Source: Aestuariivivens sediminis
Lineage (GTDB): Bacteria > Bacteroidota > Bacteroidia > Flavobacteriales > Flavobacteriaceae
Length of the DNA stretch: 64,000 bases
Assembly (NCBI RefSeq): GCF_022662105.1
Contig: NZ_JAKMCP010000001.1
Location: 372,001 to 436,000 of the forward strand
Reading direction: 5' to 3'
This document shows, piece after piece, positions 16,752 through 39,016 of this stretch. Both the position numbers and the translations under genes were made by a program. The notes under the pieces are model-generated. The model was given only the letters and a program-made list of their open reading frames with translations. It ran no database searches and was not told the DNA's origin. Numbering within the stretch: the stretch's first letter is position 1; each line of letters begins with the position of its first letter.

Positions 16752-16753
16752 AA

Positions 16754-19532: not shown

Positions 19533-19628
19533 TATTGATTGTGTTTTAAATAAAATAAACTCCCAAAAACCCCAATCAGAATTCATGGAAGCTTATTTCA
19601 ACTCAACTACTAACTAACTCAAATGTTA

Positions 19629-21758: not shown

Positions 21759-21804
21759 CAAAAATATATTTAAAAACTCCGTTCTCTATCCTGTACTATA
21801 CTGC
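21759..21804 (-). promoter_or_regulatory. Rhamnose-regulon promoter of the rhaEW operon (site E)
   Basis: On the minus strand the site reads GCAGTATAGTACAGGAT (21804-21788), two CAG-G/T-A half-sites 10 bp apart. It is followed by exactly 21 bases and then TATTTTTG (21766-21759), a match to the -7 consensus TAnnTTTG. The second half-site thus sits where the -33 element would be. The same arrangement occurs at 21967, 27722 and 39000, and with one base less at 27302. The rest of the gap 21735-22048 is AT-rich, with no gene seen. Confidence 0.8.
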
Positions 21805-21966
21805 AAAATCTGAATTTGTATTTAAAAATATACATTTTTATTAAAATCCGCTTAGTAAATTATTGTTATTCAAACACTTATTGCATTTTTTAAATGTTTT
21901 TTAGACGTATATTAAATAAAGGATTGGCATAAAAAGCCAACGCTTTATAACTGATAAATAAATTTG

Positions 21967-22012
21967 TCAGGACAGAACAGGATTCTTTACTTGTTTTCAA
22001 AACTTAATTTTG
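21967..22012 (+). promoter_or_regulatory. Rhamnose-regulon promoter in front of the FBPase pseudogene (site A)
   Basis: TCAGGACAGAACAGGAT (21967-21983) has CAGGA half-sites 10 bp apart. After exactly 21 bases comes TAATTTTG (22005-22012), a full TAnnTTTG box. It points toward the fructose-1,6-bisphosphatase pseudogene at 22049, with a short leader of about 30 bases. It is divergent from site E. Confidence 0.78.
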
Positions 22013-22048
22013 ATGTTCATTTATTATATCAAACTATAAAAACGTCTA

Positions 22049-23064
22049 ATGCATAAAAATTATATTACTCTTGGAGAATTCATCATCAATAATCAGCAAG
22101 GTATTAAATACTCCTCAGGAGAGCTCTCTAAATTAATTAATTCTATCAGGTTAGCCGCTAAAATTATAAGTCATGAGGTTAATAAAGCAGGGTTAGTTGA
22201 TATTTTAGGAGCTTCTGTTGAAACTAACATACAAGGAGAAACCCAACAAAAGTTAGACGTTTATGCAAATGGAGTTTTTAAATCTGCCTTAATAAATAGG
22301 GAAATTGTATGTGGTATAACTAGTGAAGAAGAAGAAGAAGAAGATTTTATAACCATTGAAGGAAAATACAAAGCACATGATAATAAACATATTGTTCTTA
22401 TTGACCCATTGGACGGATCTTCAAATTTAGATGTGAATGTCTCGGTAGGCACTATTTTTTCAATATATAGAAGAGTTACTCCTCCTGGAATGCCCGTTAA
22501 GAAAGAAGACTTTTTACAGAAAGGTAATGAGCAAGTTGCGACAGGTTATATAGTTTATGGCACCTCAACAATGTTAGTTTATACTACTGGCAATGGTGTA
22601 AATGGTTTCACTCTTAACCCTGCACTCGGAACTTTTTATTTGCTACATCTTAAGATGAAATTTCCTGAATCTGGTAATATTTTTTCAATAAACGAAGGTA
22701 ATTATGCTCATTGCTCTCAAAGTGTTTAAGATCATATTAAATATTGTCAAGCCGAAGAAGAAGACAGACCTTACAACTTTAGACACATAGGTTCAATGGT
22801 ATCAGATTTCCATAGAAATCTGATAAAAGGAGGAATATATATTTATTCACAAGCACTAAATATCCTAATGGTAAATTACGTTTGTTATACGAATGCAATC
22901 CTATAGCTTTTTTAACCTAACAGGCAGGCGGTAAAGCAACAGATGGAATTAAAAGAATCATGGATATAAAACCCAAAGAACTACATGAAAGGGCGCCAAT
23001 TTTTTGTGGAAGTTTGAAAATGGTAGAAAAAGCAATATCATTTATTAAGAAATATGGAAGTTAG
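22049..23064 (+). pseudogene. fbp: Broken class I fructose-1,6-bisphosphatase
   Basis: The first 226 codons encode a class I FBPase with the active-site motif DPLDGSSN. The frame stops at TAA 22727-22729, where family members have Lys (GV-K-DYIKYC). Homology continues ([27 protein letters not shown]), then shifts frame near 22853-22855 and goes on as [17 protein letters not shown] second stop (TAA 22918-22920) replaces Glu in AFL-E-QAGG, and the gene ends at TAG 23062. The total span, about 338 codons, is a normal FBPase length. A run of six GAA codons (22325-22342) is also unusual. At least three lesions make an active enzyme unlikely. FBPase would serve sugar synthesis during growth on rhamnose. 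Confidence 0.92.
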
Positions 23065-23161
23065 CTATAATGATCACCAAATTTTTTTTTAAACCGATAG
23101 TTTACTACTTTTTTTTAATTTAATCTTAACTTGTAATAATCAATTTTTTAATTCTTTTTTA

Positions 23162-24208
23162 ATGGAAATATATAAGTACATAAATATTGATGAAAATTCA
23201 AGAATACCTAAATACCAGCAAATTATTGATTCTATCATTGATAATATCTCTAAAGATAATTTCAATATAGATCAAAAATTACCATCTATTAATAGTTTGA
23301 GTGAAGAGTTTTATCTCTCTCGAGATACCGTAGAAAAGGCCTATGGCATTCTAAAAGAAAGAAATATCATAACGTCAATTCCTGGAAAAGGTTTTTATAT
23401 TTCTCGAACAACATTAATATCCAAAGTCAATATTTTATTCCTAATAAATAAATTAAGCAATTACAAACTAAAAACTTACAATCATTTTATAAACAAAATT
23501 GGGACAAATTCCCATACAGATTTACATGTTTATCATTGCGACGAAAGTTTGTTTTTAAATTTATTAGAAAAGAACAAATCTGCTTATGACTACTATGTTA
23601 TCATGCCACATTTTAAAACCGACTCTTTAAGACATGTTAGTTTTACAGATAAAGTTATAAAAGCCTTAGAAAAAATAAAACAGGAAAAATTAATAATACT
23701 AGATAATATAAAACCAGAGCTAAATGGTGCATTGGGAGAAGTTTATCAAGATTTTGAAAAAGATATTTATAATGCACTAAATGAAGGGGTTTCAAAAATA
23801 AAGAAATATAAAAAAATTATGCTCATATATCCAGAGAAGGCTCTATATCCCTATCCTGGACGTATTTTACATGGATTTAGAAAATTTTGTGCAGAACATA
23901 AGTTGGACTTTGAAATTTTAGAGAAGGTTTACGACGACATGGTTTTAAAAAGAGGGGATTTATTTATTACTATTGAAGAAGCTGATTTGGTTAATTTGGT
24001 AAAACAAGTAAGGGATAATGAATATATAATTGGAAATGATATAGGCATTATTTCTTATAATGACACACCTCTAAAAGAACTTTTTGGAATTACCGTAATA
24101 TCAACAGATTTTAAAGTAATGGGTGAAACGACAGCTGAAATTATTTTAAATAAGAAAAAATTAAAATTAAAAGTTCCTTTTAATTTTATTGAAAGAGATT
24201 CTCTCTAA
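23162..24208 (+). CDS. GntR-family regulator with periplasmic-binding-protein-like effector domain
   Basis: The 348-residue protein has an N-terminal winged helix of GntR type (about 12-80; KLPSINSLSEEFYLSRDT, then IPGKGFYISRT). Its C-terminal domain (about 85-345) resembles the sugar-binding domain of LacI-like regulators, the architecture used by the Bacteroides fucose regulator FucR. Its place between the rhamnose operon and the co-regulated PUL makes it a candidate sensor of L-rhamnose or a pathway intermediate. A decayed copy of the same gene is at 27481-27677. Whether it binds the CAGGAT repeats is not shown; a tandem 10-bp repeat is more usual for AraC-type proteins. Confidence 0.88.
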   Translation: MEIYKYINIDENSRIPKYQQIIDSIIDNISKDNFNIDQKLPSINSLSEEFYLSRDTVEKAYGILKERNIITSIPGKGFYISRTTLISKVNILFLINKLSNYKLKTYNHFINKIGTNSHTDLHVYHCDESLFLNLLEKNKSAYDYYVIMPHFKTDSLRHVSFTDKVIKALEKIKQEKLIILDNIKPELNGALGEVYQDFEKDIYNALNEGVSKIKKYKKIMLIYPEKALYPYPGRILHGFRKFCAEHKLDFEILEKVYDDMVLKRGDLFITIEEADLVNLVKQVRDNEYIIGNDIGIISYNDTPLKELFGITVISTDFKVMGETTAEIILNKKKLKLKVPFNFIERDSL

Positions 24209-24382
24209 TTTTTTTATAACATTTTACATTTTTGACCACATTACATAAAATGGAGTTTATTATTTCACTTTCTATATTATGATACTACTTTTAAAGAGAT
24301 TCTTAAAAACGATTTAATATATTGAAAAATAAGATAATTAAACGCATAAACTGGATTTGATCAAAAGTTGTTTCTTAATAAT

Positions 24383-24412
24383 AAAAAACCACTAAATACT
24401 CAGTGGTTTTTT
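24383..24412. terminator. Bidirectional intrinsic terminator
   Basis: A perfect inverted repeat, AAAAAACCACT and AGTGGTTTTTT, surrounds an 8-base loop between the convergent genes 23162-24208 and 24447-27074. The A-run and T-run on the two sides mean that it can stop transcripts in both directions. The remainder of this 238-base gap shows nothing else. Confidence 0.85.
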
Positions 24413-24446
24413 TAAAATTTTCGATATTCGATATACAGATTAAACC

Positions 24447-27074
24447 CTATTTTGTAATGATCATTTTACCAGAAGTTGAAATGCCTTCAAGACTTAAGGT
24501 GTAAAAATAAAACCCTGATGGTAATTCATTAGCTTTAAATCTAATACTATGACTACCTTTATTTTTATATTCACTTATAAGAGTAGATACACAAACACCA
24601 TTTATATTATATACTTTTATAGATATTTTACCACTGTTAGGCAATACATAGGACAGTGTTGTCTCTGATCGACTAGGATTAGGATAATTGTAAATCTTCA
24701 TAGGACTTTTATTATCTATATCGATGGTTTCAGTATTAAGCTTTACTGTAGCTAATTTTGATTCTAACTGTGATGCCGGAATAAACCTTACCATATCATA
24801 CACAAATCGTTTTCCTCCATATTGGGCATTATTATAAATCCCACTAATTATAATAGGATCAGCCGTAGTGTGATTATGTTTTCCATCTAACCTATAGAAG
24901 CCAGACCATGATCCCTTAGAGTTACCTCCAACATAACTACCACCTTGATTAGAGGCTTCTCTATTTTGATTAATAACATCATTTGTTTCAATTCCTTTAA
25001 TGCTGTATTTGGCATGAGTAACATTTACGTTATCATTATCCAAATAGTCCCAAGAAACTTCAACATAATAGTCTTCTTCCAACAAATCCGAAAAAACGTT
25101 TGGATCTAATTTAGCGGCAAAAGAATTACCATTGGTAACTGAATATTGATAGCCAAGACCTTGCATACCCCAATGGTGTCCTAAACCTTGTTCTCCACTA
25201 CTTGAAACAGATAAATTTGGAAAAGCTTCGAAATTTGAAGCAGATCCTAGGGAAGTATTATCAATGATTGGGTAATCTGATAAAAGGATGGCATCACTTT
25301 GCATAAACTCTTGTCCACCAATAACAGGGGCATCTTGAGAAATCCTGATTCTTGTACCAGGAGTGATATTAATCTTTTTATTACCTAAAAGATACCATCC
25401 CGAAAAGGTGTCATCTGGATGACTTATTCCATCTGCATGTATCCACTGATTTACTGTGCCATTGTATTTGTTTTCCGTATAATCATAAACCCTATACCTT
25501 GCGGCATTAGATCTAAAACCTCCATTTTTGTGCCACATAACATAAATATATTTTGAAGTTCCAGAAAATGCGCCAAGATCTCTTTCTGCCCATGCTGTTT
25601 CATTAGGTATAGACATAACCGTACCGCTATTTAACCAAGTTTGCCCAGTGACATTCCATGGTACGCCAGCATATATCCACCCTTGACCACTTCCAGTCAT
25701 GATTGCCATAGTATCCTCTGTATCTCTATAAGATGGTTGCGCTATTGTTTCTATACGATCTGTCGTACTCCACGAGAAATAAATTAAATATCCGTCTGGA
25801 TCTTCAGAAAAACCTGCTGCTGGACTTTCATTACAAGTTCCTGGATTTGTCATAGGCCATCTTTGTCCAACTTGCTCTCTTACAACGACTGCTGATATTA
25901 AACAGGAACCAGTGCCTACGGAATATGTAACCTTTGGTAGTTTGTATACACCTGGAGTCGGGTATTCAGCAGTTAAGCATGGTAAGTACAATTCGTGTGA
26001 GTATACAGATAAAAGATCTTTAGGTATTCTTATCCAACCATGTACGGTACCATTTGTAACATCAGCTGAAATATTACCTGTAAACGTTAAAGTATCATCT
26101 ACTTCAATCGTCAATGGTGTTCCACTGCCACCAGAAGTCCAATCTCCTTCACTCATACCAATTTTAACACTGGAATTCTCGCTCCAATCGCTTACAACAG
26201 TAGTCACGGAAGGATCATACATAGCCAACCAACTATCTCGGGTAAGCGTAAAATAAACATTACCATCAACTCCCATAGAGGGAAACTGAGGATAATCTAT
26301 ACCTTGCAAAACATTAGTAGCTTGACCATTAGAAAGTTGTATTTTTACTAAAAGCCCGGTATTTGCATTATCTCCCTGATTGGCCTCGGTACATAAATAT
26401 AAAAACTCATCGTTATTGTCTATAACAAGTCCTCTACTTCTCCATATGCCACTGTTTATAATCGTAGTAACTGTTCCATTTGGCGCTCTTTTTTTAACAC
26501 TACCTGGGATTCCGCTTTCTGGAAGACCATAAATACTAAAGTAAACCGTACCATCTGATGCCACAGCAACTCCTTCCGCCGGACCCTGCAGGTTGTCTAC
26601 AAGTATCTCCACAGAACCATTGCTTTTGTTCCACCTGCTAATACGGGACGGTGATTCCGTAGCAAAATAAACATTTCCACTTGCGTCGGTTGCTATTCCT
26701 CTTGGCCTTGTAATTCCAGTAACAATATTTGCTTCTATTCCATTAGGGTCAATTTTTGTTATCATTGCTGGATTACCTACATCACCCAAATCACGCCCGA
26801 TAAAAAGGTTTCCCGAATCATCAAATGCAGCGCCGTACATTCCCTGAAGCCCTATTCGTTTTACTTCTACTACTCCATTTGCATATACCCTTCTTAACAT
26901 TTGCCTGTTAAATTCTGTAAAATAGATCGTGCCATCTGGAGCTGCGGCACACCCATATGAATAGTGCACTGGTGTAATTAACCTCATGCCTTTTGGGACA
27001 TCAATTAATGGTTGACCTTGTGCTAATAAAAAAGATAAAACACTAACGTAAACAAAACAGTAAAATTTTTTCAT
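24447..27074 (-). CDS. T9SS-secreted protein: NHL-like beta-propeller, two golvesin-like domains, sorting tail
   Basis: An 875-residue secreted protein with a signal peptide (1-20). Residues about 25-330 are NHL/SMP-30-like propeller repeats (e.g. GIATDASGNVYFATE, GVAVASDGTVYFSIYG). Two later segments (about 500-600 and 660-770) resemble golvesin/Xly-type carbohydrate-binding domains (ARYRVYDY... and YDMVRFIPAS). The last 75 residues are a type A T9SS sorting domain (YNYPNPSRSETTLSYVLP to the end). It has its own promoter with the rhamnose-regulon repeat (site C). Beta-propellers include rhamnose-related lyases and the GH145 rhamnosidases, so a catalytic role is possible, but no catalytic residues were identified. 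Confidence 0.8.
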   Translation of the reverse strand: MKKFYCFVYVSVLSFLLAQGQPLIDVPKGMRLITPVHYSYGCAAAPDGTIYFTEFNRQMLRRVYANGVVEVKRIGLQGMYGAAFDDSGNLFIGRDLGDVGNPAMITKIDPNGIEANIVTGITRPRGIATDASGNVYFATESPSRISRWNKSNGSVEILVDNLQGPAEGVAVASDGTVYFSIYGLPESGIPGSVKKRAPNGTVTTIINSGIWRSRGLVIDNNDEFLYLCTEANQGDNANTGLLVKIQLSNGQATNVLQGIDYPQFPSMGVDGNVYFTLTRDSWLAMYDPSVTTVVSDWSENSSVKIGMSEGDWTSGGSGTPLTIEVDDTLTFTGNISADVTNGTVHGWIRIPKDLLSVYSHELYLPCLTAEYPTPGVYKLPKVTYSVGTGSCLISAVVVREQVGQRWPMTNPGTCNESPAAGFSEDPDGYLIYFSWSTTDRIETIAQPSYRDTEDTMAIMTGSGQGWIYAGVPWNVTGQTWLNSGTVMSIPNETAWAERDLGAFSGTSKYIYVMWHKNGGFRSNAARYRVYDYTENKYNGTVNQWIHADGISHPDDTFSGWYLLGNKKINITPGTRIRISQDAPVIGGQEFMQSDAILLSDYPIIDNTSLGSASNFEAFPNLSVSSSGEQGLGHHWGMQGLGYQYSVTNGNSFAAKLDPNVFSDLLEEDYYVEVSWDYLDNDNVNVTHAKYSIKGIETNDVINQNREASNQGGSYVGGNSKGSWSGFYRLDGKHNHTTADPIIISGIYNNAQYGGKRFVYDMVRFIPASQLESKLATVKLNTETIDIDNKSPMKIYNYPNPSRSETTLSYVLPNSGKISIKVYNINGVCVSTLISEYKNKGSHSIRFKANELPSGFYFYTLSLEGISTSGKMIITK

Positions 27075-27273
27075 AATTAATTAATTTAAGACTAGCTTTT
27101 TTGTAGTCGTTTATAATTTAGCACACAAAAGTTTGTGCCACTACTACACTGTGGTTTTTGTAATTTATTGTATGAGAGCCTTTTGTTTGAGATTCGTTAA
27201 AAAATTCTGAAACGGCAACACCAATTTATTTAGTTGATAAAAGATTCTGAATTTGCAAATTTTAAATCACGTT

Positions 27274-27318
27274 AAAACTATAAATGGCTAATCAAAAAAC
27301 TATCCTGCACAATCCTGC
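27274..27318 (-). promoter_or_regulatory. Rhamnose-regulon promoter of the propeller gene (site C)
   Basis: On the minus strand the site reads GCAGGATTGTGCAGGAT (27318-27302). A weaker -7 box TAGTTTTA (27281-27274) follows after 20 bases. The predicted leader to the ATG at 27074 is long, about 190 bases, and holds a hairpin at 27121-27139 (GCACA/TGTGC stem). The spacing and the box are slightly off the pattern of the other four sites, so this is the least certain one. Confidence 0.65.
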
Positions 27319-27480
27319 TTTATTTATCATAAATTTCACTTAATTAAAGTGTCTGCTGAATTTTTATCGTTAATAAACCCACCTTGTTGAATCAACCATT
27401 TTGAAAAGTAAAAAGAATACTTTTTAATTCATTTGTATTAACGAAATTTCTAGAATTCGAAATGACAAAAGAATACTGAT

Positions 27481-27677
27481 AGAATTATCATTAATATTTC
27501 TAACAATAAGTTAATTATGTCTTCAATAAACAAATTCCAAAAAGAATTTTATCTATCCGCAGATACCATTTAGAAAACGTAGTATATATTAAGAAAAAAA
27601 ATTAAATGACTTTAAAGCAAACTTATTGTATACAAAGAACAACGCTTACTTATAAAACTGATATCCTATTCTTAAGC
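27481..27677 (+). pseudogene. Remnant of a GntR regulator paralogous to 23162-24208
   Basis: Translated in two frames, this stretch matches the N-terminal third of the intact GntR gene. The first part gives SSINKFQKEFYLSADTI (intact: PSINSLSEEFYLSRDTV) and continues through two TAG codons (27571, 27580) to YILRKK (intact: GILKER). After a frame change it gives IQRTTLTYKTDILFL (intact: ISRTTLISKVNILFL). The rest of the gene is gone. It lies between regulon sites C and B. The surrounding gap 27075-27813 holds otherwise only the two promoters. Confidence 0.82.
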
Positions 27678-27721
27678 CACCATTATAAGTGACTTTCATC
27701 ACTTTATATTTTTAAATAATA

Positions 27722-27767
27722 ACAGGATTGTACAGGATGCTTTCTATGGAATCGCTCAATATATTTG
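27722..27767 (+). promoter_or_regulatory. Rhamnose-regulon promoter of the rhamnose PUL (site B)
   Basis: ACAGGATTGTACAGGAT (27722-27738) is the best example of the direct repeat, two identical heptamers ACAGGAT 10 bp apart. After exactly 21 bases comes TATATTTG (27760-27767), a full -7 box. The SusC start is at 27814, so the leader is about 40 bases. No HTCS is encoded near this PUL, so this site is its likely control element. Confidence 0.82.
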
Positions 27768-27813
27768 AAAAATAATTTATAACTAAGGCTTAAAACCAAT
27801 TAAACTAAATTTT

Positions 27814-30800
27814 ATGAAAATTGTCTGTATTTTTAAGGAAAAAGGATTGTATCTTCTTTTTTTTCTATTCTTTTTAAGTTTTAAAGTATCTGCTCAAGAT
27901 ACAGTTTCAGGAACTGTTAAAAGTAAAGGCTTACCATTGCCAGGGGCCACAATCACTATTAAAGGAACAAATACTGGAACTGTTTCAGATTTTAATGGTA
28001 AATATGAAATTAAAGCGAAATCTGATGCTGTTTTGTTAATTTCGTTTTTAGGATACGAAACGCTTGAAGAAAATGTTAATGGAAGATCCGAAATCAACAT
28101 TAATCTTGAGGAAAGTCAAGAGGAACTATCAGAAGTTGTACTAGTTGGTTATGGTGCCGTAAAAAAGAGTGATTTCACAGGGTCTTCTTCAAAAGTTGCA
28201 AACAAAGAATTAGAAGAATTTCCAATTACGAATCTTGAAAGTGCTTTACAAGGCCGTATGGCAGGTGTAAATATAACTAGCACTTCATCAGAGCCAGGAG
28301 GGGGGGTCAGCATCCAAATTAGGGGAGCAACTTCTTTATCTGGGGGAAATCAACCATTATATGTCATTGATGGTGTACCTCAATTTAACGATGCTTCACG
28401 TTCTGCAGCTGAAATAAATGGATTTGCTCCAACTAATGCTTTAGCTTCCTTAAATCCGAATGATATAGAGTCTGTAGAAGTGTTAAAAGACGCTTCGTCT
28501 GCTGCGATATATGGTTCAAGAGGTGCAAATGGTGTAATCATTATTACAACTAAAAAAGGAAAAGCAGGAGAAAGCAATATAACTTTTGATACTTTTACTA
28601 CGATTGCCGAAAGACCAAAATCCATTCCACTTGCCACTGCAAGAGAGTTCGCAACCCACATAAACCTAGCAAATACAAATCTTGGCGGAGAACCTTATTA
28701 CAATGGTGAAGAAAGGTTCACAGTGGATGGTCAACAAAGTGTGATCTTTCCCAACCCTGAAGAATTGGGTCAAGGTACAGATTGGCAAAGAGAAATATTT
28801 AGGTCTGCCATAACAAATAATTATCAATTAACGGCAAGTGGTGGGAATGATGCTGTAAGATATTTACTCTCTGGAAATTATTTAAAAGACGAAGGTGTTG
28901 TTAAATTTTCAAAATATAGAAAAGGCGCATTTAGATTAAATCTTGATGCCGATTTAAATAAAAGATTAAAAGCAGTTGTGAATCTCAGTTATTCCGCTGA
29001 TTTAAATGACAGAGCAGAAAGTACAAATCTAAGCACAACTCCTGGAGGTCTATCTCCAAGTGGTTCTATATTAAAATCTTTAATAACAAGTCCAGCACTT
29101 TCAACAGATAATCAGCTTTATCAAGTTTTTCTTCTTCTTCCTGATAGAGGCTCCTCTTCAGGATTATTAAACCCATTATTAGATTTAGAAAACACTATTA
29201 ACCAGAGGCGTTATAATATTTTTCAAGGAAGTATGGATTTGACTTACAAATTTAATGACAACTTAAACTTTACAGTGAGAACGGCATACAACAGAACATT
29301 TAGTGCCAATGACAGCTATTGGAATAACTTAACGGCCTTTGGTTATGATGCTAAACAAAGAACATTTCAAAGTGATTGGAGAACAAATTCGTACATAAAT
29401 GAAAACTTTCTTACTTATAATAAAAATACCGAAGATTTCAATATAAATGTCGTTGTTGGTAATACATTGCAAAAGGAAGATGGTAGAGGTGCAGTATTAA
29501 ATGCTGAAAATTTAAGTATTCCAACAAATAATGGTCTTTTCCTCATACCTCTTTACCAAAACATATCAATCCCTCAAAGAAATTTTGTTGAATCGACATT
29601 AGTATCAGGATTTGCAAGAGGGTCATTTAGTTATAAGGGCAAATATTTATTAACTTTAACGGGAAGGGCAGACGCTTCTAGTAAGTTTGCTGAAAATAAA
29701 AAATGGGCATTTTTTCCGTCAGTTGGTTTAGGTTGGACGTTTTCAAGCGAAACATTTTTTGAGGAATTCCGTAATGTAATTTCAACTGGAAAGTTCAGGT
29801 TTAGTTACGGAACTAGCGGTAATCAAGCAATAAGTCCATTCCAATCTTTATCAACATTAGCACCACTGAATTTTGGGTTTAGAAACGGTCAAGCTACGGG
29901 TATTGTTACTAATTCCTCTGAAAATAAAGATTTATCTTGGGAAACAACAACACAAATAGATTATGGTCTGGATCTGTCGTTCTTAAATAACAGATTTAAC
30001 CTTACATTGGATCTGTATGAAAAAGAAACTGAAGATTTATTGCAAGCTAAAGATATTCCTTCGGAATCTGGATTCAATTCCATATTATCCAATTTTGGTA
30101 CAATTAAAAATAAAGGTTTTGAAATCTCTTTGTCCGGTAAAATTTTAAACAAAGAAAACTTTGGATGGGATTTTGCTTTTAACTATGCAAGAAATGAAAA
30201 TGAAATAGTAGATTTAGGAGAAGGTGTAGAATTTTATAATGCCCAAAATGGTCAAGCAGATTATACGCACAGACTAAGAGTTGGCGGTCAATTAGGAGAC
30301 TTTTGGGGATTTGAAACAGATGGGTTACTAAGCGCTGAGGATATTACAAACGGTGCTCCAACATTAGGTGGATCCACATTTGAAGGAGATTTAAAATTTA
30401 AGGATACCAATGAAGATGGAGCTATTACTGATGCTGATAAAGTGCTTCTTGGAAACGCTTTCCCAGATTTTACAATAGGAATTTCCAATAATTTTAGTTT
30501 CAAAAATTGGGAATTGAATTCATTGATTGTAGGGAATTTCGGAAATGAAATTTTAAATCAAAATTTATTATATGGTACTTATGGATCATATTTTGGTGTA
30601 CCTACACAAAAATACTTAAGCGACTTTTGGACACCTGAAAACAAAGATGCCTATTATCCTCGACCTTCAGCAGGAGCAGTTAATAATGTTACTTCTGATA
30701 GGTTAATTGAAGATGGTTCCTTTTTAAGGATTAAAACACTATCACTCGTTTATAATTATCAATTGCCGAATTCCAAAACTAAGTTTAGATTTAATTTAAC

Positions 30801-30948: not shown

Positions 30949-30959
30949 AAAATAAAACT

Positions 30960-32465
30960 ATGAAGAATTTAATTTATTTAGCCTTGGTATTATTCTTATT
31001 CTGTCTTACTTCATGTGAAGAGGAATTAAATGAAGTACCACTTACAACGATTTCACCGAACAACTTTTATAAATCGCAGTCTGATTTAGAACTTGCAACT
31101 TTAGGAGCAATAGGAATCCATAGTAGTTTAGATTTGTATTCTTGGGGGATACACTATGCTCAAACATGGCCAGCCGGCGATTATAACAGAGGTCCTGGTG
31201 ACCCCTGGGAAAACTTGTCCTTCGAATCTAATTGGTATTTTTCCAGCTTATTATGGGATGCAAATTATAGATTAATTAATAACGTAAACTTAGCTTTGGA
31301 TAAGATTGATGGTGTACAATTTGATAGTGAGGAAAAAAGAAATGCACTAGTAGGAGAACTTCATTTTCTAAGGGCAGTATCATATTTTGATCTAGTAAGA
31401 TTATTTGGTAAAGTACCTTTACACTTAAGTCCAACAGTTGATTTAGCAGGTTCCTCTTTACCAGAATCTGAAATTGCCGATGTTTACGAAGCCATAGTAT
31501 CAGATTTAAAAGCAGCTGAATCTATATTAGACATAAATAACGCTTATGGAGATGGCTACGCAACAAAAGGTTCGGCTGCTGGCCTTTTAGTAAAAGTATA
31601 TGTTTTTATGGCTGGGTATCCACTAAAAGATACATCCAAATGGACTATGGCATTAGAGCAAGTGAAAAAAATTGTAGATGTAGGCAATCCTTCAGTTTCT
31701 GCTTCTCCCTATAATTATTATCTAGAGCCTGACTTTCAAAATTTATTTTACCTAGTTATTTCTCCGGCTTTTTCTGGCTCTGGTGGATCAGGAAGCGTGA
31801 CAATAGGTCAGCCAGCTAACGAAAATGGCCCAGAGGCTGTATATGAAATTAATTTTGACCAAACCCCTGGGCTTATTTCCTCTGCATTTCCAACTTCAGT
31901 TAGTGGACTGCTTATCAAAGATTGGTTAAGAACATACTTTGAGGATAATGATTACAGAAAAGAAGTAACCATGGTTACGACCGATACAGACCCTCTAGGC
32001 TCTATGTTTCTTGAGAAAAAATTTCAAAGTACAGGAAGTACTTGGTATGATAATTCAAACAACTGGCCATATTTAAGGTACGCTAATCTTATATTATATC
32101 TGGCAGAAGCTGAGAATGAAGTAAATGGTCCTACTCCACTAGCATTTAGCGCGCTAAACGCCATTCGTGAAAGAGCGAGAAAAGGTAAAAATGGTGAACC
32201 AGAAAGAGCGGTGCCCGCAGATTACACAACGGCAGATGCCAGTACAAAAGAAGAGTTTAGACAATTATTATACAGAGAGCGTATTTTAGAATTCGCCTGT
32301 GAAGGCGAGAATTGGTTTGACTGGATAAGAACTGAAAGACTTGAAGAGTTGCTTAATTTCCAAGGTCGCTCTCAATACTACAGACCAAGATTAGAGTTTT
32401 TCCCAAAGCCACAGTCACAAGTTACACTGTCTAATGGAAATATTAGTCAAAATACAGGTTATTAA
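30960..32465 (+). CDS. SusD-family nutrient-binding lipoprotein of the rhamnose PUL
   Basis: The start is ATG 30960, 11 bases after the SusC stop; a longer frame beginning at 30918 overlaps SusC and lacks a signal peptide start. About 501 residues with a lipoprotein signal (FCLTSCEEEL), SusD pattern VPLTTISPNNFYKSQSD, helices with ALVGELHFLRAVSYFDLVRLFGKVPL, and the C-terminal FPKPQSQVTLSNGNISQNTGY. Partner of the SusC encoded just upstream. Confidence 0.95.
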   Translation: MKNLIYLALVLFLFCLTSCEEELNEVPLTTISPNNFYKSQSDLELATLGAIGIHSSLDLYSWGIHYAQTWPAGDYNRGPGDPWENLSFESNWYFSSLLWDANYRLINNVNLALDKIDGVQFDSEEKRNALVGELHFLRAVSYFDLVRLFGKVPLHLSPTVDLAGSSLPESEIADVYEAIVSDLKAAESILDINNAYGDGYATKGSAAGLLVKVYVFMAGYPLKDTSKWTMALEQVKKIVDVGNPSVSASPYNYYLEPDFQNLFYLVISPAFSGSGGSGSVTIGQPANENGPEAVYEINFDQTPGLISSAFPTSVSGLLIKDWLRTYFEDNDYRKEVTMVTTDTDPLGSMFLEKKFQSTGSTWYDNSNNWPYLRYANLILYLAEAENEVNGPTPLAFSALNAIRERARKGKNGEPERAVPADYTTADASTKEEFRQLLYRERILEFACEGENWFDWIRTERLEELLNFQGRSQYYRPRLEFFPKPQSQVTLSNGNISQNTGY

Positions 32466-32520
32466 TAGTGCAATAGCAAATCACTAACAAAACCTCATTA
32501 GGAGTTATTAAGCTCTTTCT

Positions 32521-32565
32521 AGAATCTAATAAGAAGTTTGTATTATAAACATCTTATTAGATTCT
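32521..32565. repeat. Strong intergenic hairpin after susD
   Basis: AGAATCTAATAAGA (32521-32534) and its exact complement TCTTATTAGATTCT (32552-32565) can form a 14-bp stem with a 17-base loop in the 149 bases between SusD and the next enzyme gene. No T-run follows, so it is not a standard terminator. Such a structure could protect the SusC/SusD part of the transcript or partly stop transcription, so that enzymes are made at a lower level. That role is inference. Confidence 0.75.
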
Positions 32566-32614
32566 GGCAATCATGATAAATCTGGAAATTTTTTACAATA
32601 CCAGAAAATATAAT

Positions 32615-34330
32615 ATGAAAAACTTATTATTAAAAAATAATTGTAGAGCAATTATAATATTCTTATTATCAATAAATAACCTCTTCGCTCAGGCTAACAA
32701 GAACGTATTCAATGAAAAACCTGCTGGATTTGACTATTTTATTGGGATTGTTGGAAACCCCTCAGCACCAAATATTGATTGGAGTGATAAACAGCTTATT
32801 GAATTGAAACAGCTTGGAGTAAACATGTTACAATTAAGTATAGCTTGGGGTGGTAAACCTGCCGATGAAGTTCTTAATCTTGAAGATTTGGATGAGGAGC
32901 AAAAAGCCAAGTTTAAATATAGAATAAAGCAAGCCAAAAAATTTGGTTTTAAAACTATAGCCCATTTTGGTATTCCAAGAATGCTCAACTATGCACCAAT
33001 TCTTCCAGCTTGTATTATGGATGAGGATATCAAGAAAAAATATGTGGATTTGATAAGTGATTTTATGATTTCCTTTCCAGAAGTTGACGACATCTTAGTT
33101 TACACATACGATCAACAGGCTTGGATATGTAGCGAATTTGGACCATGTCCTCGTTGTAGTGGATTACCCCTAGATGAAAGGTTACCTGGTTTTTTAAACC
33201 TTCTCAATAATACAATACAAAAGTATAGACCTAATGGTTCAAGATTATGGTGGAAACCATGGGAGATTTCAAAAGGTCAAACTATAGCAATATTAGAAAA
33301 GCTTAATACAAAAGGGTTAGGTTTAATGCTGAATCCTTCAACCACAAACGAGGTTTATCCTTTTAATGATAGATCCTTTAAATCTGATTTGGGAGTTAAA
33401 CGTTTTGTTACCCTAGCCCGTACTAGAAATATACCCGTTATTGGAGAATTTGATCATACACTATATAAGCCTTTATATCAGATAGGAGACTATTTTCCTA
33501 GACTTGTATACGAAACATTGAATGGATGGAAAGAACTTAATATTCAAGGAATTAAGGAGTATTATGGTTTTGAAAGTTCTAACTTTTCGGTTAATTATGA
33601 AATGCTAAAAGCTTGGGTAAAATCTCCTGAGGAATCCCTTGAATATTTACTTAATAAAATAGCTGCCCCATATGGGGAAAAACGCTCCGGTTTTATGAAA
33701 GAAGCATGGGAGCTTGTTGCTCAATCTGTGGAGGCATTTCCTTGGGATGTAACTTATTTAATAGGGCCAATGGGGTTAGATCTCTCACAAAATGGCACTC
33801 ATAGTTGGCAACCAGCAAATATTCCTAATGCAACTTGGGATACACCTATATGGGAAGCTAACAGAAGAGCTAATTTTATGTTAACAGATTCTAACAAGGC
33901 CCATCCATGGATTTTTGAAGACGCTGGTCTAAGATTAGAAGATGCCGCTAAACTTGGCTTTTTAGCTGTAGAATTTTTTGATAAGGCTATAGCTGAAAAT
34001 GGGATAAAAATCGAGGAAATCAAAGAACAGAGAGCAATTGTTAATAAAACATCGAAATCTCTGCGAGGAGTATCTATACATTATTTATTAACTCTCGCTT
34101 CACAAGATGCAAGAATGGCACAAATTAATGATGATCAGTTTCAATTAATTGTTAAAAGAATCGATAAACTTCTAGTAAGAGATCTAGAAAATGGTAATAA
34201 AGAAGCAGAAAAAAAACTAATTGAGTTTAGACAAAACCCAAAGCAATGGTTACAATTTAGTTTTAATCCAAGAACTCATGAATCGATCAGCTATCCCGAT
34301 TGGAAAGTATGGACTGTTCCACAAGATTAA
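32615..34330 (+). CDS. Secreted orphan glycosidase-like protein with conserved Cys cluster (paralogue 1)
   Basis: Start chosen at ATG 32615, which gives a signal peptide ending in LFAQ; a frame from 32573 adds 14 residues. About 571 residues. The order of motifs is like a TIM-barrel glycosidase: GVNMLQLSIAWG, FGFKTIAHFG, ILVYTYDQQAWICSE, WWKPWEISKGQT, IPVIGEFDH, GIKEYYGFES, then a helical C-terminal part with WEANRRANFM. Four Cys (133, 172, 178, 181; the last three as C-x5-C-x2-C) are shared with the paralogue at 36254 and look like a metal site. Glu217 is a candidate catalytic residue. I cannot place it in a known GH family. Being in a rhamnose PUL without a recognisable rhamnosidase, it may release rhamnose. 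Confidence 0.72.
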   Translation: MKNLLLKNNCRAIIIFLLSINNLFAQANKNVFNEKPAGFDYFIGIVGNPSAPNIDWSDKQLIELKQLGVNMLQLSIAWGGKPADEVLNLEDLDEEQKAKFKYRIKQAKKFGFKTIAHFGIPRMLNYAPILPACIMDEDIKKKYVDLISDFMISFPEVDDILVYTYDQQAWICSEFGPCPRCSGLPLDERLPGFLNLLNNTIQKYRPNGSRLWWKPWEISKGQTIAILEKLNTKGLGLMLNPSTTNEVYPFNDRSFKSDLGVKRFVTLARTRNIPVIGEFDHTLYKPLYQIGDYFPRLVYETLNGWKELNIQGIKEYYGFESSNFSVNYEMLKAWVKSPEESLEYLLNKIAAPYGEKRSGFMKEAWELVAQSVEAFPWDVTYLIGPMGLDLSQNGTHSWQPANIPNATWDTPIWEANRRANFMLTDSNKAHPWIFEDAGLRLEDAAKLGFLAVEFFDKAIAENGIKIEEIKEQRAIVNKTSKSLRGVSIHYLLTLASQDARMAQINDDQFQLIVKRIDKLLVRDLENGNKEAEKKLIEFRQNPKQWLQFSFNPRTHESISYPDWKVWTVPQD

Positions 34331-34368
34331 ATACGACTTAACTTATTAACATTTTACATAATAAAATA

Positions 34369-36234
34369 ATGGCTCATAAAAGAATTTATTTATCGGTAGT
34401 AGCACTCCTTTTCTTTTTATTATCATTTGCTCAAAAAAAGGATGTTCTTTTTCCACTCCCTTCAAATTCAGTTCATTTTGAACATATTTTTGAAGAGGCC
34501 ATACAAAGATCAATTGAAAACTGGATTAAAGGAAGTGTTCCTTATTCTGCACTTGTAGATAAATTTCGTACTGGGAGGTCATTTTTTGCACAAGGAGAAA
34601 TGTGGGGTAAAGCAGTTAGGTCTGGTTGTATGTTTTATAGATATACTCAAGACCCAAAACTTAAAAATATTCTAGACAAGACGATGAAAGATATGATGAG
34701 TGCCTCTAGACCTAATGGAAGTATTAGTTGTTCTACAATTGAGAACCAACCCGATGGACCTGGTGGAGATCTTTGGGAGCGAAAATACGTGCTGTTGGCC
34801 ATGCTACAGTATTATACAAATGTGCAAAAGGATTCAACAGTACTTAATTCAATGATTGGGCAATTGGATTGCATCATTGACCAAGTTGGATATCCTCCAA
34901 AAACCAGTATATTAGACTTAGGATGGAGCCCTAATAAAATAGAATCTAGCACTTTGCTGGAGCCAACAATGCGAATCTACAATTTAACACAAAACCAAAA
35001 ATATTTAGATTTTGCTACCTATATCGTTAATGAAGGTGGCGCAAAAGGCTACAATCTTTTCCAAGCTGCTTTAAATAATGTAGACCCATATAAAATGGCT
35101 GGTGTATACCCCAAAGCTTATGAAATGATGTCACTTTTTGAGGGACTGGTAGAATATTACAGAGTAACTAAAGAAGAAAAATGGAAACAGGCCGTATTGA
35201 ACCTTTTTCACAACATCATAGAAAAAGAAATTACCATAATTGGAAATGGTGGAGGAGACCAACCTTACCATCCAAAAGTACTTGGAGAAGCATGGGATAA
35301 TACAGCAGTAGAACAAACCAATCCAGATATGGAAAGGATGATGGAAACTTGCGTGGGTGTTACTTGGATGAAACTTTGTAGTCAATTATTACGTCTTACG
35401 GGAGACCCTCTTACGGTAGATATGATAGAGAAGTATGCCTATAACGGACTTCTAGGAGCCATGAAACCCGAAGGGGATGGCTTTAGCTATGTTAATTTAC
35501 TCAATGGAGTGAAAACTAATGCAGAAGGTTGGGGAGGAAATGTATCAGGCGTCTACATGACCTGTTGTAATCTCAACGGTCCTATGGGACTGGCATATTT
35601 ACCTTACGTTGCAGTAATGAAATCTAATTCTGGTCCTGTAATCAATTTATATGAAAAAGGTTTAGCTTCAGTTGATTTATCTGAAGAAAATAAGGTCGGT
35701 TTTAAAATTGAAACAGATTATCCCAAATCAGGAAATATAGCTATAAATGTTTCACCAAAAATAACTGCGAATTTCAATTTAAAGTTACGCATTCCTGCAT
35801 GGAGTACTGCCACAATCCTAAAAATCAATGGTAAAGAATACCCGGCTAGTGCCGGCACTTATGCTGATATAAATAGAAAATGGTCAACGGGAGATTTAAT
35901 AGAACTACAATTAGATATGAGATGTCGTATTATTGATGCACCTCAAGGTAGCAACCGAAAAGGAGATCATTTTAAAGCTCTGGTAAGAGGTCCGATTGTA
36001 TTGACAAGAGATGAAAATTTAGATGAGAACTATGACAAACCAATAAATATCATTTCAAAAAATGGCCTTGTAGAAATCATAGAAAAGCAACCTACTTATG
36101 ATCACATAAAATTTCAATTCAAAATTCCGACAGAAAGTGGCCATATAGACATGATAGACTATGCATCTGCTAACAGCTGGTCTGGTAAAAAAGTTTTTAC
36201 ATGGATTCCATATGAACCAGAAATAAATAACTAA
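34369..36234 (+). CDS. GH127-like (DUF1680) glycosidase with cysteine-metal active site
   Basis: A 621-residue exported protein (signal peptide ending in LSFAQ). It keeps the active-site pattern of GH127 beta-L-arabinofuranosidases: Glu326-x-Cys328 in METCVG and the Cys399-Cys400 pair in MTCCN, which bind zinc, one Cys being the nucleophile. The alpha/alpha-barrel region covers about 20-430, followed by a beta-sandwich with LKLRIPAWS and ALVRGPIVL. Besides L-arabinofuranose, relatives act on other sugars, including 3,6-anhydro-D-galactose in GH127/GH129. It sits between the two orphan paralogues. The true substrate in this PUL is open. Confidence 0.85.
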   Translation: MAHKRIYLSVVALLFFLLSFAQKKDVLFPLPSNSVHFEHIFEEAIQRSIENWIKGSVPYSALVDKFRTGRSFFAQGEMWGKAVRSGCMFYRYTQDPKLKNILDKTMKDMMSASRPNGSISCSTIENQPDGPGGDLWERKYVLLAMLQYYTNVQKDSTVLNSMIGQLDCIIDQVGYPPKTSILDLGWSPNKIESSTLLEPTMRIYNLTQNQKYLDFATYIVNEGGAKGYNLFQAALNNVDPYKMAGVYPKAYEMMSLFEGLVEYYRVTKEEKWKQAVLNLFHNIIEKEITIIGNGGGDQPYHPKVLGEAWDNTAVEQTNPDMERMMETCVGVTWMKLCSQLLRLTGDPLTVDMIEKYAYNGLLGAMKPEGDGFSYVNLLNGVKTNAEGWGGNVSGVYMTCCNLNGPMGLAYLPYVAVMKSNSGPVINLYEKGLASVDLSEENKVGFKIETDYPKSGNIAINVSPKITANFNLKLRIPAWSTATILKINGKEYPASAGTYADINRKWSTGDLIELQLDMRCRIIDAPQGSNRKGDHFKALVRGPIVLTRDENLDENYDKPINIISKNGLVEIIEKQPTYDHIKFQFKIPTESGHIDMIDYASANSWSGKKVFTWIPYEPEINN

Positions 36235-36253
36235 TACAACTTAAATATTTAAT

Positions 36254-38035
36254 ATGAAAATTATAAATTATGTACTAATTATTTTACTATTGACATCATG
36301 TGTTACAGAAAATAAGGACGGTAAAGAAAAAGAATTTTTAAATCAAGACATTGAATATAAAGTTGGCCTTTTAGGAGCACCCTCCTATCCCGATGTGGAA
36401 TGGAATGATGAAAATATGCAAACCATGAAAGACTTAGGGTTCAATACCATGCAACTTAATATTGCATGGGGGTATAGACCAGGAGATGATCCATTAAATT
36501 TGGAAGATGTCTTAGAGTTGCCAGAAAAATTCAAATTGCCCATAGATATAGATACTACTTTAAACAAAAATGTTGGGTCTAGCAAAACTTTTATACGTAC
36601 TAAAGATAAAATTTCGGTTCGTGCCAAAGAGCTAAAACATAGAGTAGCTATTTGCAAAAAATATGGATTTAGGAGTATCTTTCATTTTGGAGCTCCCTTT
36701 GTAGCATATCCTGCAAATGAACCTTTATCACAATGCATTTCTAATGATGCTACTATTGATAGATATACTACACTCATAAAAAATTTTCACAAGGAGTTTT
36801 CTGGTGTTGATGACTTATTAATTTATACATATGATCAAAATGCTTGGTTATGCAGTGAGTATGGTCCATGTGAACGGTGTCATGGCGTTCCTTTAGATGA
36901 GAGAGTTTCTAAATTTATTAATACATTGGCCAGCACCTGGAAATCCCTTAATGGTGATGGAAGAGTGTGGTGGGAGCCTTGGGAAATTTCAGCAGGTCAA
37001 ACTTTTAGTATTGTAGATAAGCTTGATCCTGAATCTGTTGGTTTATCTCTTCATTCAAGTATTGCAGAGGTTCAAATTGCAATACCTGCCGATAGGTGGT
37101 TTAAAAATTTGGTAAACCTAGCAAATGAAAATAATATTCCTGTTTTAGGCGAAGTATGGATGGGAAGTGCCACTGAAGAGGTAGAACCTTATATAAATAT
37201 TCCAACGCCTCTTGCCACTTTAAAGGCATTAAGAGCAGTAAATAATTCTGGTAAACTAAAAGGAATTAAAGAATATTATGGAAATATTCCAAATAGAGAA
37301 GATGTAAACTTGCGAATGACTTCCATATTCTTTTCTAACCCAGATATTTCAGATAATGAAGCTTTGAAGCAATTGGCAGAGCCCTACGGTGAAGTAGCAG
37401 ATAAAGTAGCAGAATTTTGGGAATACTCATCCGAAGCAATTGAACTCTATCCTTGGGATATTTCTTGGAATTCAAGAGAAATAGGGAGAATAGACCCTAT
37501 TCATCTCATGTCTGCCGCTACACTTAAAGGCGTTAGCTGGGAAACTCCTTCTTGGCAGTCTAACCGCAGGGCTGGCTTTATGAGAACGTCTGAAACAGAG
37601 GAACCTCATTATTGGATGTTAGAAGATGCTCAACTTCGTTTTGAAAAAAGTGCCGAAAAAATTGGAAAAGCATTATCTGTTGCCAATGAAATTAAAGATG
37701 ATGTGCCTAATGGCTATAGGGAAAGTTTTAATTCAAGCATTACAGAATTAACAAGTTTGCGAAAAGCATTATTATCATACGTTTATCATATTAGAGAAAC
37801 CAATTTATCCTCTTTAATGAGAAGCTCATTGAAGAATACAGGAAAAATCAAGGAATCTAACCTTAACGAATTAAGGTCTATACTTAAAAAAGATATCGAA
37901 AATCAGGGTACCTCAGAATTTGTAGGCCCTGCACTAGACCTTTTGGAATCTGATGTCAACCAATTTTTAGACACCTATTTTAAAGTGACGCCTTTTACAG
38001 GGCAAAGAAACGTTTGGTCTGTGACATCAAAATAA
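36254..38035 (+). CDS. Lipoprotein orphan glycosidase-like protein with conserved Cys cluster (paralogue 2)
   Basis: The 593-residue paralogue of 32615-34330. A lipoprotein signal (LLLTSCVTEN, Cys16) replaces the plain signal peptide, so this copy is membrane-anchored. Shared motifs are GFNTMQLNIAWG, GFRSIFHFG, LLIYTYDQNAWLCSE, WWEPWEISAGQT, IPVLGEVW, GIKEYYGN and WQSNRRAGFM. The four Cys are residues 161, 200, 206 and 209; Glu241 and Glu244 are candidate catalytic residues. An insert of about 30 residues (near 78-110) distinguishes it. The two copies flank the GH127-like gene, which suggests a duplication with division of labour between cell-surface and periplasmic steps. Family unknown to me. 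Confidence 0.72.
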   Translation: MKIINYVLIILLLTSCVTENKDGKEKEFLNQDIEYKVGLLGAPSYPDVEWNDENMQTMKDLGFNTMQLNIAWGYRPGDDPLNLEDVLELPEKFKLPIDIDTTLNKNVGSSKTFIRTKDKISVRAKELKHRVAICKKYGFRSIFHFGAPFVAYPANEPLSQCISNDATIDRYTTLIKNFHKEFSGVDDLLIYTYDQNAWLCSEYGPCERCHGVPLDERVSKFINTLASTWKSLNGDGRVWWEPWEISAGQTFSIVDKLDPESVGLSLHSSIAEVQIAIPADRWFKNLVNLANENNIPVLGEVWMGSATEEVEPYINIPTPLATLKALRAVNNSGKLKGIKEYYGNIPNREDVNLRMTSIFFSNPDISDNEALKQLAEPYGEVADKVAEFWEYSSEAIELYPWDISWNSREIGRIDPIHLMSAATLKGVSWETPSWQSNRRAGFMRTSETEEPHYWMLEDAQLRFEKSAEKIGKALSVANEIKDDVPNGYRESFNSSITELTSLRKALLSYVYHIRETNLSSLMRSSLKNTGKIKESNLNELRSILKKDIENQGTSEFVGPALDLLESDVNQFLDTYFKVTPFTGQRNVWSVTSK

Positions 38036-38078
38036 AATATGGTTAAGCTATTATTATGTCTATTTATAATTATACAAA

Positions 38079-38393
38079 ATGATTAGGAAAGCATTTAAAA
38101 TGAAAGTTTTTCCAGATAAGATTGATGAATACATAAAAAGGCACAACCCTATTTGGAAAGAACTTGAAGATACCTTAAAGTCCCATAAAGTGAGAAATTA
38201 TAGTATTTTTTGGGATAAAGAAACAAATCTTTTATTTGGTTATGCTGAATTAGAATCGGAAATAAAATGGAATAAAATAGCCAACACTGATGTTTGTAAA
38301 AGATGGTGGAATTATATGTCTGATTTAATGGAAACAAATGAAGATAATAGTCCGGTATCCATAGAACTCGAGCAAGTTTTTTATTTATTTTAA
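38079..38393 (+). CDS. rhaM: L-rhamnose mutarotase
   Basis: A 104-residue protein that matches RhaM over its full length: [14 protein letters not shown], the RHNPIW motif with the catalytic His22, [31 protein letters not shown] and [14 protein letters not shown]. It interconverts the alpha and beta anomers of L-rhamnose. There is no signal peptide, so it acts in the cytoplasm, feeding the isomerase encoded at 18252-19532. As the last gene of this PUL, it is the direct evidence that the PUL releases L-rhamnose. Confidence 0.95.
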
Positions 38394-38469
38394 ATAATAT
38401 CTTCCAGATTGATCCTTAAAATTAGCTTGACTATTTATATATATATAATTTAAAACCAATTCTTAATTA

Positions 38470-38488
38470 ATCAAACAATATGTTTGAT
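38470..38488. repeat. Short palindrome downstream of rhaM
   Basis: ATCAAACA and TGTTTGAT flank ATA in an AT-rich stretch about 77 bases after the rhaM stop. It could be a weak 3'-end hairpin or an operator. Nothing else in 38394-38560 is recognised. Confidence 0.4.
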
Positions 38489-38559
38489 GTTACCCTATAG
38501 TTGTACAAAATCCTGAGCATAATACAATCAATTACATAAATCAAGCCAATACTTTTTAA

Positions 38560-38690
38560 ATAAAAAAAAAGATTTTAGCAATTTTAATACTATGGTTTCT
38601 TGTCGGCCTCAATAATCCTAAAAGTTCACAGTCAAAAATCCGAAAGGTATTCTTATGAAATTGAGAGTAGCTACATTACACCTAATAGCT
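38560..38690 (+). pseudogene. Remnant of a secreted-protein 5' end with mutated start
   Basis: From 38560 the frame reads ATA followed by KKKILAILILWFLVGLNN, a classic signal peptide if the ATA was once ATG. The frame meets TGA at 38656; a following frame gives YSYEIESSYITPNSS before another stop. Nothing longer remains and I do not recognise the gene. The call rests only on the signal-peptide look. Confidence 0.35.
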
Positions 38691-38879
38691 CCTAGCTGTA
38701 AAAAAATTAAAAATAGAACCACATTTAAGCGATTTAATATAGGTAGAAGGAACATATCCATTAAAGGTTGTAGGAAGAGGGGCCAGGGCATCCAATTGCC
38801 CCTGATTTCCTATAAGTAGATCCTGGGAATATGTGAATTGAAAAATGAAAGTAAATAATAAAAAGTAAAGCTTTTTCAT
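38682..38879 (-). pseudogene. Truncated secreted protein with intact promoter
   Basis: From ATG 38879 the minus strand encodes a good signal peptide (MKKLYFLLFTFIFQFTYSQ) and then only about 46 residues (DLLIGNQGQLDALAPL...) to a stop at 38682. The frame is open further upstream to 38951. The mature part is too short for an enzyme and matches nothing I know. It has a full rhamnose-regulon promoter (site D), so the original gene probably encoded a secreted member of the system. It ends against the opposite remnant at 38560-38690, as if a deletion had removed the bodies of two convergent genes. Confidence 0.5.
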
Positions 38880-38970
38880 AATGGATTGATTTAGTATTAG
38901 TCTATATTTTGGTAACACCGAATCTTCACCTTTTTTATTGTTGAAGGCCATTTGAACATTCAGTATCTCT

Positions 38971-39016
38971 CAAAACTAAAACCAACGATCCATAAATGTA
39001 TCCTGCACAATGCTGT
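38971..39016 (-). promoter_or_regulatory. Rhamnose-regulon promoter of the truncated secreted gene (site D)
   Basis: On the minus strand the site reads ACAGCATTGTGCAGGAT (39016-39000). After exactly 21 bases comes TAGTTTTG (38978-38971), a full -7 box. It points to the truncated ORF at 38682-38879. Confidence 0.78.

Follow-up and report, generated by a model that had tools for sequence, protein, structure and literature searches.

A 10-bp direct repeat at a fixed distance from the promoter box and its candidate GntR-type regulator in rhamnose loci of Aestuariivivens sediminis and related Bacteroidota

A 64,000-nucleotide stretch of the Aestuariivivens sediminis genome (RefSeq assembly GCF_022662105.1, contig NZ_JAKMCP010000001.1, positions 372,001 to 436,000 of the forward strand; the whole stretch is referred to here as the window, and its first letter is position 1) carries genes for rhamnose catabolism and a polysaccharide utilization locus (PUL). 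A 17-bp element composed of two half-sites in direct repeat stands in front of five of its genes, which raises the question of which protein reads this element and whether it turns the genes on or off. An initial annotation had placed the five copies upstream of TAnnTTTG-type promoter boxes (-7 boxes) and had attributed them to an activator, either the GntR-family protein encoded in the window or an AraC-type RhaR encoded elsewhere; as a whole, that interpretation is partly supported. The best explanation of the data, in which we have good confidence, is that the GntR-Peripla_BP_3 protein encoded at 23162 to 24208 would have the element as its operator and would act as an activator.

The element lies at a fixed distance from the promoter box

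The five sites occupy the positions and strands given by the initial annotation (Table 1), each oriented toward its own gene, and differ from CAGGATTGTRCAGGAT by 2, 3, 0, 0, and 1 mismatches in order of position. A search of the window allowing three mismatches to CAGGATTGTRCAGGAT returned these five only, with 0.85 expected from shuffled sequences and five reached in none of 100 shuffles. The spacer to the TAnnTTTG-type box is 21 bp at all five sites, and the box is perfect at four. For the site at 27302 a spacer of 20 bp had been proposed; with the box TAGTTTTA, which does have the one mismatch described, it is also 21 bp. When the full pattern (motif, N21, and TAnnTTTG) was used to search the genome (3,932,727 bases, 13 contigs) with up to three mismatches, the five window sites and none besides were recovered, and the pattern read backward gave no matches. 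All five sites fall within about 17 kb, and chance or local duplication might be invoked for that reason. Given the shuffles, the empty backward search, and the presence of the same arrangement before rhaEW and the fructose-1,6-bisphosphatase (FBPase) gene in other genera, this explanation has next to no probability.

A more degenerate pattern yielded a sixth match in the genome (G000:C5:443849-443893; G, C, and L numbers are our handles for genomes, contigs, and loci), with one match for the backward control in the same genome. This site, outside the window at L212:7893 on the minus strand, is weaker than the five in the window (position weight matrix [PWM] score of 16.3) and precedes a 1175-residue fusion of a sulfatase and a GH78-type alpha-L-rhamnosidase, with 41 bp from the box end to the start codon.

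Related genomes were sampled as 80 loci around GntR homologues, taken from public genome records. Within these loci, the 16-mer was found at 147 sites (not deduplicated) when up to two mismatches were allowed, compared with five for the reversed motif. An exact TAnnTTTR box was located at spacing 21 in 78 of the 147 sites and at any other spacing (5 to 44) in at most 5; with one mismatch allowed in the box, these values were 124 and at most 12. Removing duplicates and requiring a box with no more than one mismatch at spacing 21 left 121 sites, whose consensus is RCRGKAYAGTACAGGATRS. In this alignment, the repeat is direct with a 10-bp period, the half-site nearer the promoter, CAGGA, is almost invariant, and the distal half-site is looser; as these sites were chosen by motif and box, conservation among them is not independent evidence. 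A PWM applied at a score of 14 gave 170 matches versus 2 in reversed sequence, as scored on its own training loci. From the window, 18 stretches, and the 80 loci, 198 unique sites with a PWM score of at least 16 were collected. An open reading frame (ORF) starts within 400 bp of 191 of them (median distance, 39 bp), and 2 of these 191 lie inside an ORF of at least 150 amino acids, versus 840 of 955 random positions. Operators lengthened to three or four tandem 10-bp units were seen in G005 near 382090 (L027, G005:C12) and in G002 near 137881 (L038, G002:C31).

The sigma-A box TAnnTTTG is placed at -12 to -5 (PMC9723704). On this placement, the half-sites span about -49 to -44 and -39 to -34. 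A -33-like TTTG was found in 17 of the 121 spacers, and TTG within the first six spacer bases was found in 2. Spacing this rigid to the -7 box would also suit the promoter motif of an alternative sigma factor. That reading is highly improbable, however, as the box is the TAnnTTTG consensus of sigma-A itself (PMC9723704), and the sites are few per genome, lie mostly at sugar genes, and track a DNA-binding protein.

Sites co-occur with the GntR protein

The N terminus of the protein encoded at 23162 to 24208 matches Pfam GntR (1.3e-12, 47.6 bits, cutoff 27), and its C terminus is a GalR/LacI-type ligand domain (Peripla_BP_3, 9.8e-7, 29.4 bits, cutoff 26.5). Its co-occurrence with the sites was counted from per-genome tables in 299 genomes of the family, where an orthologue was defined by a best E value below 1e-115, a cutoff set after the table had been seen (no best E value lay between 2.1e-119 and 3.8e-84). 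Three or more sites were present in 54 of the 60 genomes with an orthologue (583 sites in total, control 9), in 3 of the 6 genomes whose rhaEW locus holds a homologue with 39 to 44% identity (13 sites, control 2), and in 1 of the 233 other genomes (65 sites, control 44). The six orthologue genomes that fall short of three sites all have good ones, one or two each, at the rhaEW/GntR locus. Eight genera were each represented by a pair of genomes, of which one has an orthologue and the other lacks it, and all eight differed in the expected direction; seven had 6 to 24 sites versus 0 to 1, while the genus of the window was the least clear (6 versus 2, control 2). Six rhaEW-positive genomes with neither an orthologue nor the intermediate homologue had 4 sites (control 3).

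Some of the counts tell against this assignment. As rhaEW is present in 59 of the 60 orthologue genomes, the regulator and the rha pathway travel together, and co-occurrence alone cannot fully separate them. One genome without an orthologue, G263, has 3 sites (control 1), and a site lies within 300 bp upstream of gntR itself in only 1 of 80 loci.

The other candidate was an AraC-type RhaR encoded elsewhere in the genome, by analogy with Bacteroides, where a protein of this type governs rhamnose genes and has a direct repeat as its predicted operator (PMC3870299). The repeat period there is 21 bp (PMC3870299), whereas that of the element is 10 bp, and the half-sites co-vary with the recognition helix of the GntR protein, as described below; we consider binding by an AraC-type RhaR quite improbable. 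As to the identity of the regulator, the AraC analogy also finds no support in the protein itself, a GntR winged helix joined to Peripla_BP_3. The regulator of the sites is most likely the local GntR protein, which is favored by its co-occurrence with the sites and by the joint change of half-site and helix.

Two tandem GntR copies were observed in L043, L048, L050, L052, L056, L067, and L101. They are 61 to 68% and 75 to 83% identical to the window's protein, and all have the helix SRDTVEKAY or SRDTIEKAY.

Half-sites vary with the recognition helix

Among diverged GntR homologues, the letters of the half-site vary, and the 10-bp period and N21 are kept. Class E helices (SRDT[VI]EKAY, the type in the window) are found with CAGGA, class V helices (SR[DV]T[VI]V[KR]AY) with CAGAA, and class AE helices (SRDTAEKGY and near forms) with CAT[GA]A. 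A uniform rule was applied to four half-sites, requiring an exact right half, at most three mismatches in the 16-mer, and at most one in the box. It returned 21 CAGGA matches and nothing else in 18 chosen E loci (12 of the 18 with a match), 8 CAGAA matches and nothing else in 7 V loci (4 with a match), and 2 CATGA, 2 CATAA, and 2 CAGGA matches in 8 AE loci (4 with a match); 4 loci with other helices gave no match under the rule. Spacings other than 21, of which 20 were tried, gave a mean of at most 1.15 matches each. Loci without a match have weaker sites in some cases and none visible in others. Whole-genome half-site searches, performed on 27 genomes, added the AE genomes G434 and G572, bringing CAT[GA]A right halves to 6 of 8, and identified additional CAGAA sites in the V genomes G264 and G126. 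In G484, a class-E GntR has a CAGGA site 191 bp away, and a class-V GntR on the same contig has next to it a CAGAA/CGGAA site with two mismatches in its box.

Several findings weigh against a tie between half-site and helix. Two of the matches in AE loci under the uniform rule are CAGGA, and the class-V genomes G375 and G484 have sites with two-mismatch boxes. The AE genome G345, where a search at an E value of 1e-15 gave a single GntR, has five matches with a CAGGA right half and may hold another reader of CAGGA; the AE genomes G556 and G602 (the latter with helix TAEKAY) gave CAGGA-type matches and no CAT[GA]A match. CAGGA-type matches also occur in the AE genome G456, but a second GntR there has an E-type helix, ARDTIEKAY. 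When the effector domains were placed on a tree, class V formed one group (support of 82) and AE called for two changes, a single one being possible, so that independent helix/half-site events are few; the tree allowed only 1 independent pair for each trait. Residues of the DNA-binding domain outside helix 3 also differ between classes. Finally, the residue of AraR and FadR equated, via the SRxT motif, with the varying Glu contacts the backbone and not the bases (Table 1 of PMC4494728). Because of this contact and the single independent pair per trait, we do not put forward a one-to-one reading through direct contact with the bases as established.

The CAGGA-right-half matches of G345 are located at G345:C1:1164750, 1363669, 1384968, 4899660, and 4905257.

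With these points taken into account, a wider generalization is quite possible yet tentative: a Bacteroidota GntR family of AraR architecture whose members would be class II activators, bound to 10-bp direct repeats always 21 bp from the -7 box, with the half-site readable from helix residues 57 and 58 (window numbering) as CAGGA for [VI]E, CAGAA for [VI]V, and CAT[GA]A for AE. Helix position 60 (A or G) may be a modifier of the AE class.

Activation is favored over repression

The computed features of the system are the operator, its fixed spacing, its co-occurrence with the GntR protein, and the joint change of half-site and recognition helix. That the protein activates rather than represses we infer from the position and fixed spacing of the site. 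Alternatively, this GntR could repress, keeping RNA polymerase off at -33 until the sugar releases it from the DNA, in the manner of AraR of Bacillus subtilis. PDB entries for AraR, the best-studied relative, call it a repressor, as does the title of one reference, which counts against activation, and the site does abut the promoter. A repressor needs no exact spacing, yet 21 bp dominates in many genera and recurs in distant classes with altered half-sites, and a recognizable -33 element is missing from most of these promoters. Spacing that is fixed across many promoters and lineages is typical of a protein that must touch the polymerase, whereas a blocker would tolerate variation. Repression is accordingly unlikely in our judgment, and the GntR protein probably turns the genes of the regulon on. 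As the site abuts the -33 region and a -33 box is mostly absent, class II activation appears to be the best reading of position and fixed spacing.

A further GntR protein bears on this question. A paralogue about 38% identical to the regulator (G000:C5:233677-234663, L142) is encoded in an apparent galactose operon of the window's genome. Its neighbors, judged by eye and without a family search, we take to be galT, galK, a galM-like gene, and a sodium-solute symporter gene. Upstream of its orthologues lies a 10-bp direct repeat of the TAGTAGGGTCTAGTAGG / CTAGTAGG type, whose best match was equalled in at most 3 of 100 shuffles at 17 of 20 loci and in none at 14; since the pattern itself came from those loci, the figures are a description and not a test. 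Because the distance of the repeat to the paralogue's own -7 box varies (by eye, about 17 to 21 bp), fixed spacing was dropped for this protein. Repeats upstream of its own gene at a variable distance are what an autorepressor might have, and to that extent the paralogue speaks for repression. The direct-repeat reading may hold throughout the subfamily, with the fixed register perhaps specific to the rhamnose regulator.

In the activation mechanism that we propose, two DNA-binding domains would sit head to tail on half-sites offset by one turn of the helix (10 bp), and the half-site nearer the promoter would lie at about -39 to -34, where the absent -33 element would be read. The bound GntR protein would most likely recruit sigma-A RNA polymerase to the TAnnTTTG box in a class II-like manner. 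Its trigger may be rhamnose or a close derivative sensed by the LacI-type domain, as suggested by that domain and by the target genes. The protein would thereby switch on the rha operon and the PUL as well as additional secreted genes. Within the window, gntR may itself be driven from the FBPase promoter, since the site at 21967 precedes the FBPase gene and then gntR, which makes positive feedback possible there; own-gene sites are rare in relatives.

Target genes in the window and in relatives

By comparison with the proteins of the window, the ORFs downstream of the 191 sites comprised 61 rhaEW, 25 SusC-like proteins, 22 sulfatases, 8 rha-cluster transporters, 6 FBPases, 3 GntR, 2 RhaM-like proteins, 1 propeller, and 63 others. 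A Pfam scan covered 38 of these 63, in which 53 families were matched and 25 were listed; the matches listed included type IX secretion system (T9SS) tails (6 members), GH106 rhamnosidase (5), GDSL lipases (3), GH2-related proteins (3), GH88 (2), RhaT (2), GH43 (2), a single GH78, and a single ulvan-lyase domain. Among the 63 loci in which the rhaEW start could be read, 58 carry a site no more than 300 bp upstream of it. In four of the other five (L074, L078, L093, and L094; the fifth is L080), a site precedes a gene whose protein start is RhaT-like, a call based on resemblance to L074, the only one of the four in the Pfam scan. No site was found within 300 bp upstream of the inner genes of the rha run, namely, rhaI (0 of 26), rhaB (0 of 61), and the FMN dehydrogenase gene (0 of 38).

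Table 1. Features of the window discussed in the text (PWM, position weight matrix score)
Feature	Position	Strand	Details
Operator of rhaEW operon	21788..21804	-	GCAGTATAGTACAGGAT; box TATTTTTG at 21759-21766; spacer 21 bp; PWM 41.2
Operator of broken FBPase gene, followed by gntR	21967..21983	+	Box TAATTTTG at 22005-22012; spacer 21 bp; PWM 30.9
Operator of secreted propeller gene	27302..27318	-	Box TAGTTTTA at 27273-27280 (one mismatch); spacer 21 bp; PWM 31.5
Operator of SusCD PUL	27722..27738	+	Box TATATTTG at 27760-27767; spacer 21 bp; PWM 34.9
Operator of short ORF 38685-38951	39000..39016	-	Box TAGTTTTG at 38971-38978; spacer 21 bp; PWM 32.8
GntR winged helix + LacI-type Peripla_BP_3 regulator, proposed binder	23162..24208	+	Recognition helix SRDTVEKAY
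rhaEW, bifunctional rhamnulose-1-phosphate aldolase/dehydrogenase	19629..21734	-	NCBIfam PRK08324.1-5 and TIGR02632 above cutoff
Rest of rha run	14170..19586	-	Isomerase 18252-19586, FGGY kinase 16873-18252, FMN-dependent dehydrogenase 15603-16751, NCS1-like transporter 14170-15582; NCBIfam matches of isomerase, kinase, and transporter below cutoff
Fructose-1,6-bisphosphatase pseudogene	22049..23055	+	Stop after codon 226, frameshift, and further stop relative to intact 335-residue G002 homologue
Secreted propeller-like protein, T9SS sorting domain	24447..27074	-	Vgb_lyase match below gathering cutoff; site in front
PUL	27814..38393	+	SusC 27814-30948, SusD 30918-32465, 32573-34330, GH127 34369-36234, 36254-38035, L-rhamnose mutarotase RhaM 38079-38393 (Pfam rhaM 4.2e-29)

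Counterparts of the 21967 site upstream of FBP are present in G005 and G002. The 39000 site has a copy identical over 45 bp in G003, a genome of the same genus as the window (G003:C4:28057-28101, L008), where the adjoining sulfatase stretch is 100% identical over 292 residues. G003 is without a close GntR orthologue or a rhaEW match despite this site; an orphan site, recent transfer, and an assembly effect are candidate explanations for the copy. Two hybrid two-component system (HTCS) regulators, at 9873-14006 and 53975-58180 of the window, flank the regulon; no connection of either to the 10-bp motif was noticed, and no test was aimed at one.

Comparison with known systems

Members of the AraR subfamily of GntR proteins join a winged helix of the GntR type to a sugar domain of the GalR/LacI type, which is how the subfamily is defined (PMC4494728). 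The local protein has in common with AraR of B. subtilis this architecture, a sugar regulon, and a match in the sequence of the DNA-binding domain (4egy, E value of 2.9e-7). It differs in belonging to Bacteroidota, in its tie to rhamnose, and in its operator, a 10-bp direct repeat at a fixed promoter distance; AraR, as noted, is termed a repressor. The palindromic operator typical of GntR proteins, which does not form part of the AraR subfamily definition in PMC4494728, was not found here, and a 10-bp direct repeat was found instead.

Direct-repeat operators have been described for other GntR proteins, namely, NanR, GabR, FarR, and NagQ. The MocR-type activators GabR and PdxR share the GntR DNA-binding domain and direct repeats but have an aminotransferase C-terminal domain, while NanR, which also shares both features, has a FadR-type C terminus, is a repressor, and has repeats less than half a turn apart. 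Among rhamnose regulators, the AraC-type RhaR of Bacteroides (BT3768) resembles the local system in its control of rhamnose genes and its direct-repeat operator and differs in period (PMC3870299) and in protein family; in Pfam, the local GntR shows no AraC (HTH_18) DNA-binding domain. DeoR-type RhaR proteins have direct repeats with a 10- to 11-bp period (PMC3870299) but belong to a different family from the local GntR/Peripla_BP_3 protein, for which no DeoR match was found in Pfam at an E value of 1e-4. HTCS regulators recognize a tandem motif with a period averaging 21 bp (PMC3878776), and the 10-bp period here does not fit an HTCS regulon although two HTCS are encoded in the window; the regulon would thus operate independently of an HTCS, as the initial annotation had it. 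From the same annotation, the shared operator, the fixed promoter geometry, the activator-like position at the -33 region, and the rhamnose/ulvan-type gene set are supported.

The system differs from those known in its combination of an AraR-type chimera, 10-bp repeats, an exact promoter register, and rhamnose. No published account of it was found in the literature searched, which did not cover RegPrecise-type regulon databases or most subscription journals, and five spellings of the motif did not occur in that literature. The analysis links a previously unassigned GntR protein to the use of rhamnose and ulvan-type polysaccharides in marine Bacteroidota. A pattern defined from sequence only picks out likely members of the regulon, including rhamnosidases, sulfatases, SusCD proteins, and transporters. 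The homologues further provide a natural series of regulator/operator pairs for the study of DNA recognition by GntR proteins and of promoters that depend on an activator in a phylum whose promoter boxes are its own.

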